Shown here piece by piece: positions 5,689-18,122 of a stretch of 64,000 bases of DNA. The stretch spans positions 310,001 to 374,000 of the forward strand of contig JAIYAX010000012.1 of the NCBI GenBank assembly GCA_027488815.1. Reading direction: 5' to 3'. The position numbers and the translations under genes were made by a program. The notes under the pieces were generated by a model. The model had not been told where the DNA came from, searched no databases, and worked only from the letters and a program-made list of their open reading frames with translations. Positions within the stretch are counted from its first letter, which is position 1; every line of letters starts with the position of its first letter. The stretch is from Cytophagaceae bacterium (GTDB taxonomy: Bacteria; Bacteroidota; Bacteroidia; Cytophagales; JAIYAX01).

Positions 5689-8600
5689 ATGAAACATCTT
5701 AAACTAAGCACTTCACAAAATTTTTGGATCATCATCGCTTCCCTTATTATGATGATCGTTCAAAGTCCAATTAAGGCGCAATCCTTGAATGATTATATAT
5801 TCACTTCAGGAAATGAGCCCTTTGTGCAAATCACAGGAACCACATTGCCTCTTAGTTCAGGCACTCTGGATGATGGAGTATTTACCAATATTCCTATAGG
5901 ATTTACTTTTGACTATCTGGGTACCAACTTTTCCACCGTCTCAGCATCTACCAATGGATGGTTGAGTTTTGTTTCTCCAACTACAAATTCCTTACTAGGT
6001 AATAATCTGGCGACAGGAACAGGTGTAAGGCCGTTACTTGCTCCTCTTTGGGATGACAATCAATTGGCATCAGCATCAGATTTCTCTTTTACCACAACAG
6101 TTCTTGGCGGGGATAGTGTTTTTATTGCCCAGTGGATAAATGTTTGGTGGAGATTTACTGCTGGAACCCCGGTCATGTCTTTCCAGGTAATTCTGAATAA
6201 GACCGACCGAAGCATCAAATTCACTTACAGGGAAGAAGCGGGTGCCCCTAATACACCTTCAGCTTCGATTGGGATTTGTGGTACATTAACAGGCCCTGGT
6301 AATTTTCTTTCTTTGGGAAGTACCGGCACTAACCCAACTGTCAGTTCTACCACAGAAGCCAGTAATTTAAGTGGTAAACCTGTAACAGGACAGTTCTACA
6401 AGTTTACTCCTCCACCATTGGCGGCAAACAATTTAGGAGTTATTGCAATTACTTCTCCTTCGGAGCAATGCGGATTAGGTTCAAGTTCCCCTGTGACTCT
6501 TGTTGTCAGAAATTTCGGAACCACCTCTCAGGCAAGTATACCTCTTAATTTCAGCATCAATGGAGGAACAACCGTAAGTCAAACATTCACATCCACCTTA
6601 AACACGGGAGATACTGCTTCTTTTACACTTACAACTCCTGCCAGTTTTCCTGCCACTACAACTACCGCTTATAATGTAACCGGTTGGGTGGCATTACCGG
6701 GAGATCAATTTACACTAAATGATACCCTGATCAGAAGTTTTACCAAATATGTTGCTCCCTTACCATTAATTAGTTTTACAGGATTTACTGGACCTAATTT
6801 AAATACTGTAGCTGCCGGCTGGAACGAAGCAAATGGGTTTATACCTACCATCGGTACAGGAAACTGGCTATCAAACACTACTGCTTTTCCCGGAAATACA
6901 ACTGCCACGATAGGCCTTACAACGACAACTGCGGGTGCACATTGGATACTAAGTCCAACTTTTACCACTGTTGGAGGCGATGTAGTTGATTTTTTGGCGG
7001 CTCAGGCTACCACAGCCGGAGCCTCTGTCATTCCTTTGGGCTTTGATGACAGTATTTCTATTCGTTTCACTACAGACTGCGGGCAGAGCTGGAATACCTT
7101 GTTTTCATTTACCACGGCCAACTCACCTACAAGTTCTCTATCTAACTATCTGGTGGGATTAGGCTTACCTGCAGGTGTGCAAGTTCAGGTGGCCATCGTT
7201 GCCTACACTGGTTCGATTGGTAGCGTAGGAACAGGCAACTTCTTTGTAGATGACATCAGGGTAAGGCAGCTCTCAGGTACCGATATGAGGGTAAGTTCAT
7301 TACTGAGTCCACGTCGAGACTGTGAAGCGCTTGCTGCCAGCCCTGTCACTATAACACTCAACAATGCAGGGGCTAACCCTCAGACAGGCTTCTCGGTAAG
7401 CTATACTGTGAATGGGGGTAGTCCTGTGACTGAGTTTTTTACGGGTACAATAGCTTCCGGAGCCTCTCAAAACTATACTTTCACCCAAACGGCTAACTTA
7501 TTAGGGCTGGCATCAGTAAATATCACAGCCTCTGTTTCAGCAACAGGGGATAGTGATCCCAGTAATGATACCCTAACCCGTGGGTTTGTTCAATTTTTGC
7601 CTCCTTATGCTGTCATTCCTTTTACAGGGTTTACAGGAGCTAATCTACCTGCCATTGCTCCAGGGTGGGTGGAGGCCGCTGGCTTTGTACCTGTTCAAGG
7701 TACCTCAAACTGGACCTCCAACACTACGGCTTTTTCAGGAAATACCACAGCCACAGTAAACCTGAACACTACCCTCAGTGGACAGCAATGGATCATAAGC
7801 CATGCCATAGATGCGACAACGAATACTGCTCTGGAATTGAAGGTTGCCTATGCCACCACTTCAGGAGGCGTGGCACCAGCACCAATCGGCTTTGACGATA
7901 GTGTGGTCATCGCTTACACCACCAATTGTGGACTTACCTGGACTCCTATTTTGTCATTTACAAATAGCTCAACACCTACCAATGTCCTTACCATACAAAC
8001 GGCTGCACTTGGGCTTAATGCTCCTGCTAAAGTAAGGATAGGAATATTGGCAGTCACAGGTTCTACCTCAGGAGGGGCCAACTTCTTTATCGATGACCTT
8101 CAAATCCGTGAGCTGGTTGGAAATAATTTGCAATTGTTTGCCATTACTTCCCCCACATCAGGTTGCAACCTGACGACCAATACTCCTGTAACTGTAACCA
8201 TAAGAAACGTAGGTACTAGCGCTCAAACCGGGTTTCCGGTTTCTTACAGGATCAATGGAGGAGCTAGTGTCACCGAAACAGTGGCTGCCTCAATTGCACC
8301 TGGTTCTAATCTAAATTATACATTCACGCAGGCTGGAAATTTTGTAAGTACAGGCCCTGGAACTTATACCGTAGATTCATGGGTGAGTTTAGTGGGAGAT
8401 ACAGATCCTTCAAATGACTCACTATTGGGTTACACCCTTCAGAATATTCCCAACATTTCAACTTTTCCATATTTCCAGAATTTTGAGAGCGGAGCAGGGG
8501 GTTGGGTTAGTTCAGGCACACTCAATTCCTGGGCTTTGGGAACACCTGCTAAGCCTGTGATCAACTCTGCGGCATCAGGCCTCAACAGTTGGATTACTGG

Positions 8601-11046
8601 CGTTACCGCCGCTTACAGCAATGGAGAAAATTCACAAGTTCGGTCTCCCTGCTTTAACTTTAGTACGCTTATCGCACCCTTGATCGAGTTCAAAGTATGG
8701 TGGAACGCTGAGTTTTCATTTGATGGAGCCGTTCTCCAGTCTAGCATTGATGGGGGGACTACTTGGCAAAATGTAGGTGCTTTGGGTCAACCAAACTGGT
8801 ATAATGACAATACAATTAGCGGAGGCCCTGGCGGACAACAGATCGGTTGGTCAGGAAGAATTTCGAGCAACAATGGAAGTGGGGGCTGGGTACTTGCCAA
8901 GAATGCACTGACAGGTCTGGCAGGTCAAAGCTCGGTATTCTTGAGAATTGCTTTTGGAACAGACGGTTCAGTGGTTGACGATGGCTTTGCTTTTGATGAT
9001 ATCTTGATTTTTGACCGACCTGCAAATGACATTGGGGTTACTGCCTTGGTTAATCCATCACCTGAATGCGGAGGATTTGGCGTAATCGCTCCTCAGGTGG
9101 TAGTAAAGAATTTTGGTATAGCACCTCAGAGTAATTTTCAGGTTTTGGTCAATGTAAATGGAGGCACTCCTGTTACACAGTTGTTTACGGGTACACTGGC
9201 TCCTGACTCAACGGTGACCATCAGTTTCTTGAGTACCATTGATCTTACAGCAGCGACCACGACAACATTCAATATTTCTGCCTGGACAATACTTACCAAT
9301 GATGCGATAGGAATTAATGATACTCTCTCAAATGTGCCGGTAGTAAATCGTAAACTGGCACTTCCTATGGTTGATTTTGCCGGGTTCAACGGAACTAACC
9401 TGAGTGCGATCACATCTGGTTGGAGAGAAGGGGCAAACTTCGGAGGAACCGTAGGCAACAGTTCGTGGACAAGTTCAACGGCATTTGTTGGTAATACAAC
9501 CGCTAACCTTTGGATGGGAACATCTGCTCCCGGCAACCATTGGATTATCTCGCCAACCTTTGAAGCCGGAAGCTCATCAGTACTTGAGATGCAAGCGGCC
9601 TGGGCTAGCTTTACCGGAGGGCCAACCACAACTCCTATGGGAAGCGATGACAGTGTCACTGTGTTGATCAGCAGCAACTGTGGTCAAACATGGAATTATC
9701 TGTTTGGATTTAATTCAACAAGCGGTCTAAACAATACTTTGAGTAATCATACCATTTCACTTGGACTGAGTGCTACTGCACCTGTCAGGATCGCAATCGT
9801 AGCGAATTTGGGGACTCAGTTTGGCGGAGAACACTTCTTCATTGACAACCTGAACGTTCGCAACCTGTCTAACATAGACATGGAAATGGTCAGCATCAAC
9901 CGCCCGACCTCAGGTTGTAATCTGACCACATCAGATACAGTTGAAGTAACTATTCGTAATGTTGGAACAGCACCCCAAACGAATATCCCTGTGTCATACC
10001 GGATAAATGGCGGAACAGCGGTTACTGAAATCATTACTGCAACTTTAAATCCATTGGGAATTCTGAATTATAAGTTCAGTGCAACGGGTAACTTTACTGC
10101 AACGGGACCTGGCGTATACCTGGTTGATGCCTGGGTGGGTCTTTCAGGTGACGGCGATTTGGGAAATGATACCATCATTGGCTACTCAGTGGAAAACATT
10201 CCTGTCATCAACGCATTCCCTTATTATCAGAATTTTGAAATTGGAAGTGGAGGCTGGGTATCAGGAGGAACATTGAATTCCTGGGCTTTAGGAACTCCTT
10301 CGAAACCCGTGATAAACTCCGCATTTAGCGGTAATACCTGTTGGGTAACTGGTTTGACACAGAATTATAACGACAATGAGAATTCATTTGTAATCTCACC
10401 TTGCTTCAACATGAGTTCATTGACCAACCCTTATGTTTCCTTGTCGATCAACTGGAATTGTGAATTTTCTTTTGATGGCGCTGTATTGCAAACCAGTATC
10501 GATGGGGGAAATAGCTGGCAAAATCAAGGTAACCTGGGCCAACTCAATTGGTACAACGATAACACCATCAGTGGTAACCCCGGAGGCCAGCAAATAGGCT
10601 GGTCAGGAACAGGATCAAGTGGAAGTGGGGGATGGAGAGTTGCAATCGATACACTCGTGGGTGTAGCTGGCCAATCCTCAGTTTTCTTTAGAGTGGGATT
10701 TGGTACCGATGGTTCTGTTGTGGGTGACGGAGTAGCATTCGACGATTTCTACATTCAGGATGGAGCCATTACCGGCATTCCTACTGATTTGATGAACAAT
10801 GGAATTTCTGTTTATCCAAACCCTGTTGAGCAAAGGCTATATCTTAAAACCAATATGTCTTTGGAGACCCTAAAACAGCTGGAAGTCTACAATGCTCAAG
10901 GCAAGCTTATCTTATCTTCTGAAGGTGAAAGCCTAACCAAGCTTATCACTTTTGGTCTGGATACCAGAGATTGGGCGACAGGATTGTATATCGTTCATAT
11001 CAAGTCGAATGACAGTAGTTTAAAAGCAAAAGTGATCAAACAATAA
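5689..11046 (+). CDS. Second giant modular T9SS-secreted surface protein
   Basis: This 1785-residue paralogue of the upstream gene has a signal peptide ending near residue 30 (QSPIKAQ). Its N-terminal beta-rich domain differs from the neighbour's: about residues 31-240 contain STNGWLSF and WDDNQ, as in nidogen-like or propeller-edge domains of Bacteroidota. It then carries the same series of CARDB-like units (YRINGG, NDTL), GW(N/V/R)E modules ending FF(V/I)D(D/N), and two MAM/jelly-roll-like modules (about residues 925-1110 and 1505-1690). There is no PKD domain. The C-terminal type A sorting domain begins at GISVYPNPVEQ and ends in KVIKQ. Shared module order points to duplication and N-terminal domain swapping. 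The protein is probably anchored at or released from the cell surface. The ligand is unknown. Confidence 0.9.
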   Translation: MKHLKLSTSQNFWIIIASLIMMIVQSPIKAQSLNDYIFTSGNEPFVQITGTTLPLSSGTLDDGVFTNIPIGFTFDYLGTNFSTVSASTNGWLSFVSPTTNSLLGNNLATGTGVRPLLAPLWDDNQLASASDFSFTTTVLGGDSVFIAQWINVWWRFTAGTPVMSFQVILNKTDRSIKFTYREEAGAPNTPSASIGICGTLTGPGNFLSLGSTGTNPTVSSTTEASNLSGKPVTGQFYKFTPPPLAANNLGVIAITSPSEQCGLGSSSPVTLVVRNFGTTSQASIPLNFSINGGTTVSQTFTSTLNTGDTASFTLTTPASFPATTTTAYNVTGWVALPGDQFTLNDTLIRSFTKYVAPLPLISFTGFTGPNLNTVAAGWNEANGFIPTIGTGNWLSNTTAFPGNTTATIGLTTTTAGAHWILSPTFTTVGGDVVDFLAAQATTAGASVIPLGFDDSISIRFTTDCGQSWNTLFSFTTANSPTSSLSNYLVGLGLPAGVQVQVAIVAYTGSIGSVGTGNFFVDDIRVRQLSGTDMRVSSLLSPRRDCEALAASPVTITLNNAGANPQTGFSVSYTVNGGSPVTEFFTGTIASGASQNYTFTQTANLLGLASVNITASVSATGDSDPSNDTLTRGFVQFLPPYAVIPFTGFTGANLPAIAPGWVEAAGFVPVQGTSNWTSNTTAFSGNTTATVNLNTTLSGQQWIISHAIDATTNTALELKVAYATTSGGVAPAPIGFDDSVVIAYTTNCGLTWTPILSFTNSSTPTNVLTIQTAALGLNAPAKVRIGILAVTGSTSGGANFFIDDLQIRELVGNNLQLFAITSPTSGCNLTTNTPVTVTIRNVGTSAQTGFPVSYRINGGASVTETVAASIAPGSNLNYTFTQAGNFVSTGPGTYTVDSWVSLVGDTDPSNDSLLGYTLQNIPNISTFPYFQNFESGAGGWVSSGTLNSWALGTPAKPVINSAASGLNSWITGVTAAYSNGENSQVRSPCFNFSTLIAPLIEFKVWWNAEFSFDGAVLQSSIDGGTTWQNVGALGQPNWYNDNTISGGPGGQQIGWSGRISSNNGSGGWVLAKNALTGLAGQSSVFLRIAFGTDGSVVDDGFAFDDILIFDRPANDIGVTALVNPSPECGGFGVIAPQVVVKNFGIAPQSNFQVLVNVNGGTPVTQLFTGTLAPDSTVTISFLSTIDLTAATTTTFNISAWTILTNDAIGINDTLSNVPVVNRKLALPMVDFAGFNGTNLSAITSGWREGANFGGTVGNSSWTSSTAFVGNTTANLWMGTSAPGNHWIISPTFEAGSSSVLEMQAAWASFTGGPTTTPMGSDDSVTVLISSNCGQTWNYLFGFNSTSGLNNTLSNHTISLGLSATAPVRIAIVANLGTQFGGEHFFIDNLNVRNLSNIDMEMVSINRPTSGCNLTTSDTVEVTIRNVGTAPQTNIPVSYRINGGTAVTEIITATLNPLGILNYKFSATGNFTATGPGVYLVDAWVGLSGDGDLGNDTIIGYSVENIPVINAFPYYQNFEIGSGGWVSGGTLNSWALGTPSKPVINSAFSGNTCWVTGLTQNYNDNENSFVISPCFNMSSLTNPYVSLSINWNCEFSFDGAVLQTSIDGGNSWQNQGNLGQLNWYNDNTISGNPGGQQIGWSGTGSSGSGGWRVAIDTLVGVAGQSSVFFRVGFGTDGSVVGDGVAFDDFYIQDGAITGIPTDLMNNGISVYPNPVEQRLYLKTNMSLETLKQLEVYNAQGKLILSSEGESLTKLITFGLDTRDWATGLYIVHIKSNDSSLKAKVIKQ

Positions 11047-14484: not shown

Positions 14485-14663
14485 TGGCGCAACAGATATT
14501 GGTTTACCTCACTTTGGCTTTAGCCTTGATTTATCTGGGGAGGAAATTTTACAAGCAACTCCTAAAGCCTGAAAAGGCCTGCGGCAGCCATTGCACAGGA
14601 TGCGGCCAAATCGATTTTGAGAAAATTGTCGAAAGCCCAAAAAAGGCAAGTCAGGCTTTGTAG
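14484..14663 (+). CDS. Tiny Cys-rich membrane protein (FeoB-associated type)
   Basis: The frame encodes 59 residues. It starts MAQQILVYLTLALALIYLG, a single membrane segment, followed by a basic stretch (RKFYKQLLK) and a cysteine cluster C-G-S-H-C-T-G-C-G. This layout matches the small FeoB-associated Cys-rich family common in Bacteroidota (short TM helix plus a CxxxCxxC-like cluster). Its ATG overlaps the upstream stop codon (TAATG), which implies translational coupling. Its last 13 bases overlap the 3' end of hpt on the other strand. No feoB is nearby, so a link to iron transport is only by family. Confidence 0.6.
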   Translation: MAQQILVYLTLALALIYLGRKFYKQLLKPEKACGSHCTGCGQIDFEKIVESPKKASQAL

Positions 14664-15202
14664 CAATAAATGTCAGGAAGGTTTCTTCCATGTGACTCAT
14701 AGTCAAGCCCGAAACCGACAATAAATTCAGGGCCGATCTCAAATCCGAAATAGTCAATCCTTGGGTATTGATTCTCAGGAAGTGTTTTCTTAAAAAGGCA
14801 ACATGTGGCAACTGATGCTACCCCGCATTCATTGAGTCTATGGTTTAAATAGTGAAGCGTTGTTCCGGAGTCCACAATGTCCTCTATGATGACCACATGT
14901 TCTCCGGGGAAGGCTTTCTCCGGAAAATAATCCTCCTCAATTCTTCCATTGCTCTCCATGTGGGAATAGGAGCTTAGCTTGATGAATTGAACCCTTGCAG
15001 AGTATGGTATTTTAAGAAGCAGGGACGAAGCAAAAAAGAACGCACCGGAGAGCACCACTACAAACAGAGGATCTTTGTCTTTATAATCCTCTCCGATTTT
15101 CAGGGACAATTCCTGAACTTTGTCCTCAATCTCCTGACGACTGATCATCAGAGCAAAGGATTTATCGAGCAGTTGGATGGATTCCGGGGGTGTGATGGCC
15201 AT
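14651..15202 (-). CDS. hpt: Hypoxanthine phosphoribosyltransferase
   Basis: The 183-residue purine-salvage enzyme converts hypoxanthine or guanine plus PRPP to IMP or GMP. The PRPP-binding loop is clear (VVIIEDIVDSGTTL, residues about 103-116), as are the LSGAFFFASSL loop that contacts pyrophosphate and the KLSSYSHMESNG flexible loop. The C-terminal FGLDYESHGRNLPDIY segment is the nucleobase-contacting end. I start it at the ATG at 15202, which gives the usual 175-185 residues. The upstream in-frame extension runs through the terminator of the neighbouring gene. It is convergent with the tiny Cys-rich gene. Confidence 0.93.
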   Translation of the reverse strand: MAITPPESIQLLDKSFALMISRQEIEDKVQELSLKIGEDYKDKDPLFVVVLSGAFFFASSLLLKIPYSARVQFIKLSSYSHMESNGRIEEDYFPEKAFPGEHVVIIEDIVDSGTTLHYLNHRLNECGVASVATCCLFKKTLPENQYPRIDYFGFEIGPEFIVGFGLDYESHGRNLPDIYCYKA

Positions 15203-15204
15203 AG

Positions 15205-15243
15205 GAAAAAAAACACCCGCAAACCTGTGGCCTGCGGGTGTGA
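15205..15243 (-). terminator. Terminator of the pyrophosphatase-YceI gene
   Basis: On the minus strand the stem ACACCCGCA / TGCGGGTGT with an 11-base loop runs into a tract of eight T. It lies about 20 bases beyond the fusion gene's stop and immediately upstream of hpt. Confidence 0.85.
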
Positions 15244-15263: not shown

Positions 15264-18065
15264 TTATTTAGTTGCTTCTTTCGGATTAGCCTCAACGGTA
15301 ATGTCCAGCTTCACCTCATCACCCAAAATACCAGGCATATAAGAGATACCGTAGTCATTTCTGTTTAAAACGATAGAGGTCTGGAAAGCAATAACCGGAA
15401 CATTGAAAGGAGTAAGTCCTTTGCCATAATAGGTAAATGGAAGCTCAACTTCTTTTTCAACACCATGAAAATTGAGTTTGCCTTTAGCTGAGTAGCCACT
15501 TTCTGTTTTGCTGATCTGCTCAGATTTGAAAGTGATAACAGGGTATTTGGCAATATCGAAGAAATCCGGGCTCTTCAAATGATCATCACGCTGTCCGTTT
15601 TTCGTGTTAACACTTGCCGGGTCAATGCTGATGTCGATTTTGGAGGCTTCCAGAGTAGGGGTAATGCTGATTTCTCCGCTTACTTTTTCGAAAGTTCCTT
15701 TAGCATCAGACATGATGTGCCTTACCCGGAAGTCCATAAAGGTATGTGCTCCGTCAATCATCCAGTTGCCCGCCGCTTCGGCAAGATCAGCGGAAGCAGG
15801 CGCAGCGGCTTTGGTCTCTGTCATGGGAACCATAGCTGCTCCTTCCTGATTGTTTCCACCACTTGGTATTTTTTCTAGTGCAATAAGTGGAGCAATTACA
15901 AGGGCAACTACTGACATCAGCTTTAGGAGGATGTTCAGCGAAGGACCTGAAGTGTCTTTGAAAGGATCACCTACAGTATCGCCTACTACAGCAGCCTTAT
16001 GAGGTTCTGACCCTTTGTAGTATTTCTTTCCATTGATGTCTACACCTTCTTCAAAGGATTTTTTAGCGTTATCCCAGGCTCCACCTGCATTGGATTGGAA
16101 AATAGCCATCAGTACACCTGCAACTGTAACTCCTGCAAGCAATCCACCCAGACCTTCAGCTCCAAACAAAGGCAAGAAGCCAATGAAAACAGGAACCACT
16201 ACTGCCAATAATCCCGGCAATATCATTTCTCTGATTGCGGCTTTAGTTGAAATCTCCACACACTTGCCATATTCGGCCTTACCGTCAGCATCAGCGAAAG
16301 TTTTTTTATCCTCTGCGGACCAGTCTTCCATTTCTTTGCCATCGTTTTTGCGCATAACCGCAAGAGCCGCTTTAAGAGCAGGGATATCGTTGAACTGGCG
16401 ACGTACTTCATTGATCATGCTCATGGCTGCACGACCCACAGCGTTCATTGCGAGGGCTGAGAATACAAAGGGAAGCATAGCACCGATCAGCAAGCCTGCC
16501 ATCACCTCTGCTTTGGAAATATCAATCGTTCTGATGTTTGCAGCCGTCATGTAAGCTCCAAAAAGTGCAAGAGCTGTAAGGGCAGCTGAGGCAATGGCAA
16601 AACCTTTACCAATGGCAGCTGTCGTATTGCCTACCGCATCAAGCTTATCCGTTCTTTTTCTTACTTCTTTAGGCAACTCTGACATTTCGGCAATACCTCC
16701 GGCATTGTCAGAAATAGGACCGTAAGCATCTACTGCCAGCTGAATCCCAAGATTAGAAAGCATACCTACAGCAGCAATAGCGATACCATACAAGCCACCA
16801 AAATGGAAAGCTCCGATGATGGATAGCGCAATGATAATGACCGGAATAGCGGTGGACATCATACCCACACCCAGACCAGCAATGATATTGGTTGCAGCGC
16901 CGGTGGACGATTGTCTAACAATGGCGTTTACCGGGCCTTTGCCCATTCCGGTGTAGTATTCCGTTACCAACCCTACCAGGAGGCCGGCCACCAAACCAAT
17001 GATAGTGGCAATGAATATACCCATGGAGGTCATGATGCGGGTGGTTCCATAGAGCAGATCATTGTACGTCCACTCAGCAGGTAGCATACCTGTGATGATA
17101 AAATAAGAGGCTGCTATCATGATGAACGAAGAGCCAAACTCACCAATGTTAAGTGCGGTTTGAGGATTACCGCCCTCTTTTACCCTTACAAAGAAGGTTC
17201 CTATGATGGACACTAAGATTCCTGTACCTGCAAGAACTAAGGGGAGCAATACTGCTGAAAGACCATTGAACTGATCACTAAACCCATCGACCATAAAGGC
17301 AGCACCAAGCACCATGGTCCCGATGATTGATCCCACATAAGATTCAAATAAGTCAGCACCCATACCTGCCACGTCACCAACATTGTCACCTACGTTATCG
17401 GCAATTGTTGCGGGGTTCAGGGGGTGGTCTTCAGGTATACCTGCTTCAACTTTACCTACAAGGTCAGCACCTACATCAGCAGCTTTGGTATAAATACCGC
17501 CACCTACACGGGCGAAAAGAGCGATGGATGATGCACCAAAAGAGAAACCTGTGATAATGGTAATAACACGATTGAGGTTTTCGGCTGTTTCCGTACCAAA
17601 CAAGTTTGCGTAGAAAATAAATAATCCTGAAAGGCCAAGAACACCGAGGCCAACAACACCCATGCCCATCACTGATCCACCTGCAAAGGCTACTTCAAGT
17701 GCTTTGCCCAGGCTTGTTCGGGCAGCATTCGTAGTTCTTACATTGGCTTTGGTGGCCACTTTCATACCGATAAACCCTGCCAAGGCCGAGCATAAGGCTC
17801 CTAGAACAAAGGAAAGACCTACTAAAGGGGAGGAAGATGCGCTGTCGGCAGTTACTGCGAGCAGGATGCCTACGCAGGCTACGAAAATGGCTAATATCTT
17901 GTATTCAGCTTTGAGGAAAGCCATGGCTCCTTCGGCAATATGGCTTGCAATTTTTTGCATTTTCTCAGTGCCGGGATCTTGTTTGCTCACCCAGGCAGAT
18001 CGCCAGGCGACATAAAGAAGACCTACCACGCCTAAAGCGGGCAGGACATAAATCAAATTGGTCAT
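15264..18065 (-). CDS. hppA: Membrane-bound pyrophosphatase fused to a periplasmic YceI domain
   Basis: The 933-residue protein couples pyrophosphate hydrolysis to cation export. Residues about 1-735 are a complete mPPase: [13 protein letters not shown] (197-209), [20 protein letters not shown] (223-242), EVRRQF, and the C-terminal [30 protein letters not shown] (about 478) has Ala and Gly at the two positions where K+-independent enzymes have Lys and Thr, so it should need K+. The Glu in LFES (241) is placed as in Na+-pumps and some K+-dependent H+-pumps, so the ion is undecided. After an Ala-rich linker (about 735-762), residues 763-933 form a whole YceI lipocalin-like domain ([16 protein letters not shown]...YPVITFKS). 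In known structures both mPPase termini face the periplasm, where YceI proteins also work. I start at the ATG at 18065; 30 upstream residues are non-family. Confidence 0.93.
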
Positions 18066-18114: not shown

Positions 18115-18122
18115 CAAAGGTA
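18115..18122 (-). promoter_or_regulatory. Candidate -7 promoter element for the pyrophosphatase-YceI gene
   Basis: On the minus strand TACCTTTG matches the Bacteroidota -7 consensus TAnnTTTG exactly, 49 bases upstream of the chosen ATG. No good -33 TTG is seen at the expected distance, so the call rests on the -7 element alone. Confidence 0.4.

Follow-up and report, generated by a model that had tools for sequence, protein, structure and literature searches.

The stretch of DNA that we analysed, called the window below, is 64,000 nucleotides long and carries on its minus strand, at 15264..18065, a gene that joins a membrane pyrophosphatase (mPPase) to a YceI domain. The frame opens with an ATG at 18065, closes with a stop codon at 15266-15264 (included in the coordinates) and encodes 933 amino acids without an internal stop. 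Residues 13-724 (15894..18029, minus strand) cover the whole PF03030 model (H_PPase, 1-645; 882.8 bits, E 2.2e-265), and residues 768-926 (15288..15764, minus strand) cover the whole PF04264 model (YceI, 1-150; 139.1 bits, E 1.9e-40). The pump ends in the last modelled helix, residues 687-731 (15873..16007, minus strand), which alignment, model and hydropathy divide into a catalytic motif followed by TM16, predicted to lead to the periplasm. An Ala-rich linker of 36 residues (732-767; 15765..15872, minus strand) connects it to YceI. In fact, the initial annotation, which had read a complete mPPase, a linker and a complete YceI domain in one frame, proved exact in coordinates, strand and frame when set against Pfam and the open reading frame. 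Beyond H_PPase and YceI, no further Pfam family matched the 933-aa protein up to E 1, and the fusion protein passes the NCBIfam equivalog PRK00733.2-4, sodium-translocating pyrophosphatase (1194.6 bits against a cut-off of 1059). The window's YceI is thus not a separately exported lone protein, as it stands in frame behind TM16 of the pump. The genome that contains the window (G000; 3.37 Mb, 30 contigs) has this single mPPase, three YceI domains with the fused one included, and also one soluble family I pyrophosphatase (PF00719).

The fusion gene may form its own transcription unit. After its stop codon lies a terminator-like hairpin (15213..15241, minus strand) of 13 pairs with a loop of 3 and a T run, the site with the most pairs in a scan whose total of 4 sites does not exceed the 3.3 of its shuffles. 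About 50 bases upstream of the ATG, TACCTTTG (18115..18122, minus strand) matches TAnnTTTG, the Bacteroidota -7 motif; a scan for sigma-70 promoters found sites no more numerous than in shuffles. At 14651..15202 on the same strand, reading of the frames shows a phosphoribosyltransferase-like gene that we named hpt by eye. A similar gene lies near the mPPase in three other fused loci (L115, L116, L117) and in two unfused ones (L028, L030). The remaining loci, most of them with a flank of only 1.5-5 kb, showed none. Such a gene might supply PPi next to the pump that consumes it. When shared neighbours were sought around 50 loci (49 fused and one of the OmpA type), the two largest clusters (19 and 13 loci) were discounted on visual inspection, because their members look like reading frames on the strand opposite the pump gene. 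Elsewhere in the window, 5689-11046 (plus strand) encodes a repetitive, probably secreted protein of 1785 aa, whose C-terminal end resembles, on visual inspection, a sorting domain of the T9SS type.

The catalytic motifs of the window's pump align with those of the Vigna radiata mPPase chains. A model of all 933 residues, built from 16 rows (pLDDT 82.5), matches both mPPase and YceI structures, and its pump fold compares with 4a01_A and 4av3_A at TM-scores by target length of 0.87-0.88. YceI rows fell on wrong columns in joint alignments that held many sequences of both domains, and subsets were tried until the columns fit; the one finally used (A5) holds 6 pump and 9 YceI rows. Alignment assigns Ser to place 5.43, Glu to 6.53 and Ala to 12.46; the glutamate of the Vigna pump, E301, stands at 6.57, four residues further on. 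According to the relevant parts of PMC6882861 and PMC10897367, Ala 12.46 marks K+-dependent pumps, and Glu 6.53 occurs in Na+ pumps, in dual Na+/H+ pumps and in one K+-dependent H+ pump, that of Carboxydothermus. All three residues are present in the window's pump, yet Glu 6.53 does not separate Na+ pumps from dual Na+/H+ pumps or the Carboxydothermus H+ pump; we take the window's pump to be K+-dependent and most likely of the Na+ or dual Na+/H+ type.

The last catalytic motif of mPPases is cytoplasmic. In the model, with this motif aligned to the Vigna radiata pump, exactly one TM helix, reaching to residue 731, separates it from YceI. The best 19 residues have a mean hydropathy of 2.63 in TM16, 0.43 in the linker (732-767) and 1.07 from residue 732 to the end. 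A single TM helix after a cytoplasmic motif and no later hydrophobic stretch argue that the fused YceI should lie on the periplasmic side, as far as homology and the model can tell. In addition, pumps of relatives bear OmpA or FKBP domains at this very place, and since both kinds are known from the periplasm, this fits the proposed orientation. Both observations support the periplasmic C-terminus that had been proposed from known mPPase topology. The linker itself scores below 50 in pLDDT over residues 733-759 of the 933-residue model, and its length and sequence vary among fused pumps.

Modelled alongside 13 further rows of its family, the YceI domain reached a pLDDT of 91.5, with 7bwl, 1y0g and 1wub as its closest folds (TM-score by query length 0.83-0.87, 1y0g 0.87). 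Comparing 50 fused with 44 lone YceI domains, we found the same face to be more hydrophobic in all 10 strands (means of 1.51 against -1.17 for the other face in fused domains, 1.78 against -1.34 in lone ones); because the face with the higher value was chosen for each strand, part of the contrast is built in, and the agreement between fused and lone domains is the informative result. Structures of YceI lipocalins hold octaprenyl phosphate, octaprenylphenol or ubiquinone-8, and YceI is linked with cytochrome b561, occurs in b561-YceI chimeras and is given a role against lipid peroxidation (PMC9113575, in the parts available). In G000, a search for cytochrome b561 gave zero PF01292 matches at E<=0.001. 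The fused YceI would therefore need a partner other than cytochrome b561, and it is unlikely to work with this known partner in G000.

How widespread is the fusion? A junction profile built from ten junctions was run on draws from the order, the class and the phylum; from close relatives named Cyclobacteriaceae, Flammeovirgaceae and Cytophagales, we guess that the sampled order is Cytophagales and the class Bacteroidia. Of 390 genomes of the order, 12 carry the single-frame fusion (307-335 bits); the best of the other matches there, at most 170 bits, come from lone YceI genes. The fusion was found in 39 of 395 genomes of the class (187-333 bits), counted only at E<=1e-52, a threshold at which weaker fused genes would be missed. 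Among 395 genomes drawn from the whole phylum, G000 alone has it at E<=1e-40, and the matches in 66 other genomes are lone YceI genes of up to 174 bits. The profile misses a second YceI subfamily described below. With 1/395 in the phylum against 39/395 in the class, the frequency of the fusion depends strongly on the group drawn. The union of the three draws comprises 50 genomes, G000 being in all three, and the order and class counts bear out the suspicion in the initial annotation that the fusion occurs in related bacteria. A collection of named genomes, which may omit records near the window's genome, had it at 0 of 52 pump loci. These counts also make an artefact of an assembly join or a frameshift very unlikely, and we reject it: the same fusion recurs in 50 genomes, in one of them (G993) on a contig of 4,118,273 bases, and the YceI domain is under purifying selection (see below). 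In G966, one of the 39, the fusion gene is cut by a contig end, and the remaining frame reads from the pump through to YceI.

In fact, YceI is one of several domains at this place. Of 169 genomes of the class surveyed with PF03030, 159 have an mPPase, and we read the C-termini of 95 of these: 15 in which YceI of the window's kind had already been found, and 80 with long frames (~780 aa or more), a set that holds not quite every long-frame genome and leans to long tails, the other 64 having mostly shorter frames or fragments among the matches listed. These 95 comprise 26 YceI tails (15+11, in two subfamilies), 45 Cys-rich tails, 2 OmpA, 2 FKBP, 1 weak OmpA-like and 19 domain-free ones. In the second YceI subfamily, all 11 tails match the YceI profile at E 2.4e-8 or better, and all 5 that were scanned pass the Pfam YceI cut-off. 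FKBP_N and FKBP_C pass Pfam in both FKBP tails (L232:2396-3139 and L239:2331-3068, both plus strand). The three OmpA-like tails of the class are less uniform, as L216 passes Pfam, L235 falls below the cut-off and L233 was named by eye; four tails of the order look like OmpA, L104 and L109 passing Pfam when scanned and L108 and L118 being named by eye. mPPase-OmpA proteins thus occur in the order and class sampled here, outside the published Pseudomonadota. Also from the order, the C-terminal ~90-110 residues of L111:1578-4103 (minus strand) and L112:2245-4764 (plus strand) had no Pfam match and are perhaps OmpA-like. Cys-rich tails (5 or more Cys; 45 of the 80) show a CxxxCD-type pattern in 23 of 45 and are possibly metal-binding or disulfide-bonded; the one scanned, that of L225, had no extra Pfam match. 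They are often His-rich, with a pattern like CDMSKC..MTKEECAAYCDSMxCSPEEKAxC (L225:888-1424, minus strand; L231; L219; others). Seven fused pumps (L207, L202, L205, L206, L208, L210, L211) carry two kinds of tail in series, a Cys-containing segment after TM16 and then YceI.

The two YceI subfamilies probably came to the pump separately. In a tree of 78 rows, which includes 20 of the fused domains, the second subfamily groups with three lone YceI domains, including the C16 copy of G000 (support 92), and is separated from the window's kind by a long branch. Grouping with lone YceI across such a branch suggests that YceI probably joined the pump at least twice.

For the window's kind, pumps could be typed in 48 of the 50 fused genomes, L207 and L212 being truncated. 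Eight of the 48 are of the Na+ type (Ser 5.43 with Glu 6.53), and the other 40 have the 5.43 Glu known from the Flavobacterium johnsoniae H+ pump, with Gly at the 6.53 place in 36 and this place unread in 4. The two types stand well apart in the PPase tree (support 100 and 99; FastTree, 110 of 132 rows, 22 distant or clostridial rows having been dropped beforehand). On this tree, whose unfused rows were chosen for likeness to the window's pump, the fused/unfused label needs 10 changes, at least 7 by starred branches. In the YceI tree, built on 95 of 97 rows after removal of 2 short ones, the fused domains form one group (SH-aLRT 98; joint grouping not rejected, p 0.596), in which the sole lone YceI is L164, a second copy in G002. 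A clade of the eight Na+-type fused YceI domains is rejected (delta lnL 64, AU p 0.00122), the group having been defined by the pump and the AU test run after the YceI tree had been seen. Family f93 contains both kinds of fused pump, and in family f9 the fused G027 and G043 stand beside an unfused close relative, G008. A single fusion inherited with the pump is rejected on the 10 label changes and the AU result. Thus, one YceI group on two pump backbones, with the eight not forming a clade, argues that the module was exchanged or repeatedly recruited. Either it would have moved between backbones by recombination, or one unsampled YceI lineage would have been recruited repeatedly, and the trees fit both.

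We also considered and rejected that YceI began as a neighbouring gene and was joined to the pump when a stop codon was lost, since no clear precursor or remnant lies downstream of unfused mPPases. When the sequence behind 81 unfused mPPases was searched with a YceI profile, over as much as 1200 bases each, 1 weak match appeared (L110, E 0.0091, 9.7 bits), and as a control the scan found 75 of 75 fused loci, duplicates included. The L110 signal behind an unfused pump is a possible remnant or chance.

From the tails and trees we envision, at a likelihood slightly short of even, that the mPPase in this class (probably Bacteroidia) is a general display platform with an exchangeable periplasmic slot. 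This slot would hold two YceI subfamilies, OmpA, FKBP-type prolyl isomerases and Cys-rich tails, and recombination at the conserved 3' end of the gene would have carried YceI across Na+- and H+-type backbones.

Are such tails of any use to the cell? One explanation is that mPPase C-termini simply tolerate additions, so that domains are captured almost neutrally and carried along without a joint function. The great variety of tails, with 19 of 80 domain-free, and the mixture of fused and unfused pumps in the G027/G043/G008 family would both be expected in that case. Selection speaks otherwise. Among 11 pairs, dN/dS of the pump is 0-0.036, and that of YceI is 0.016-0.142 in the nine computable pairs, with dS above 1 in three; the YceI domain is under purifying selection and is maintained. 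The appearance of a second YceI subfamily at the same place and the strand pattern kept in fused domains count against passive capture as well, and we regard it as unlikely. The tether is often loose, as linker dN/dS runs from 0 to 0.68 (nine pairs), being low in some of them (0, 0.06, 0.07).

The reading that we favour, at about even chances, is that a K+-dependent pump, most likely Na+ or dual Na+/H+, serves as the membrane anchor of a tethered, lipid-binding YceI domain in the periplasm. As in other mPPases, the core would hydrolyse PPi on the cytoplasmic side and move a cation out. Past TM16 the C-terminus would emerge in the periplasm and hold the lipocalin-like barrel of YceI on a flexible tether of ~36 residues. 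Where the inner membrane faces the periplasm, this barrel would most likely bind an isoprenoid or a similar lipid (menaquinone, a prenyl phosphate), and the tethered domain may serve as a lipid chaperone or an antioxidant, by analogy with what is thought of the cytochrome b561-YceI chimeras. mPPases are homodimers (PMC10897367, in part); the dimeric pump, which we assume to be abundant, would be mainly an anchor, and YceI need not control pumping. The presence of one YceI group on both Na+- and H+-type pumps, the AU rejection of a Na+-type clade, the often loose linker and the mixed slot point to a tether rather than to a finely adjusted link between isoprenoid binding and pumping.

Loose linkers are nevertheless compatible with regulation, the linker is conserved in some pairs, and the association of fused YceI with the pump in 50 genomes, L164 being the sole lone member, could reflect a functional tie. 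YceI might thus sense a periplasmic isoprenoid or quinone and allosterically adjust the exit side of the pump. The covalent 1:1 link on just that side would suit such a sensor, as would the fact that fused YceI domains group together and stay with their pumps, and so would purifying selection on YceI together with the conserved linkers. We think this control rather unlikely, because the linker is modelled with low confidence, varies in length and sequence and evolves fast in several pairs, the same YceI module sits on both pump types, and unrelated domains take the same slot.

More doubtful still is a link with undecaprenyl-pyrophosphate recycling, in which YceI would hand over prenyl carriers or the pump would be tied to the phosphate released there. 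The compartment is right, and YceI structures do hold isoprenoids, octaprenyl phosphate among them (PMC9113575, in part). This tie, put forward in the initial annotation, found no support: YceI sits on both pump types, the slot takes OmpA, FKBP or Cys-rich tails equally, and the linker evolves fast in several pairs. It is established, moreover, that the substrate of mPPases is PPi, which they hydrolyse on the cytoplasmic side, and that lipid pyrophosphates of the periplasm are not hydrolysed. By eye, the open reading frames near the gene include no look-alike of an undecaprenyl-pyrophosphate phosphatase.

The usual view of mPPases is that of single-domain pumps. A periplasmic appendage as widespread as YceI of the window's kind (39/395 class genomes) would give them a second role, linking the PPi energy economy to envelope maintenance; if the display platform is real, the pump would be both an energy converter and an anchor of envelope-maintenance domains. 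As YceI is covalently bound yet separable, its binding and its action at the inner membrane are directly testable by cutting one tether, and the set of tails offers natural markers of mPPase sidedness as well as ready-made chimeras.

We found no report of an mPPase-YceI fusion in the open-access literature, most subscription papers lying outside this search. An OmpA-like C-terminal domain is known on mPPases of Paucibacter and relatives, with its role left open (PMC11210485). These proteins have in common with ours an mPPase core followed by an extra C-terminal domain, whereas the window's fusion has YceI in place of OmpA; Table 2 of that paper covers Paucibacter, Burkholderiaceae and other Pseudomonadota, and the word YceI is absent from it. 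The LcoA-BcnA chimeras of alphaproteobacteria (cytochrome b561-YceI) likewise place YceI at the C-terminus of an inner-membrane protein, with a linker replacing the signal peptide (PMC9113575, in part). Their membrane partner is a redox protein, whereas here it is an mPPase pump, in a genome without a PF01292 match. With the K+-dependent Na+-PPase of Thermotoga maritima (4av3) and the H+-PPase of Vigna radiata (4a01), the window's protein shares the pump fold and catalytic motifs, but these pumps are without a C-terminal YceI. Finally, its YceI domain shares fold and family with the lone YceI proteins 1y0g, 1wub, 7bwl and 3hpe, which are unattached to a membrane protein, whereas that of the window is tethered.
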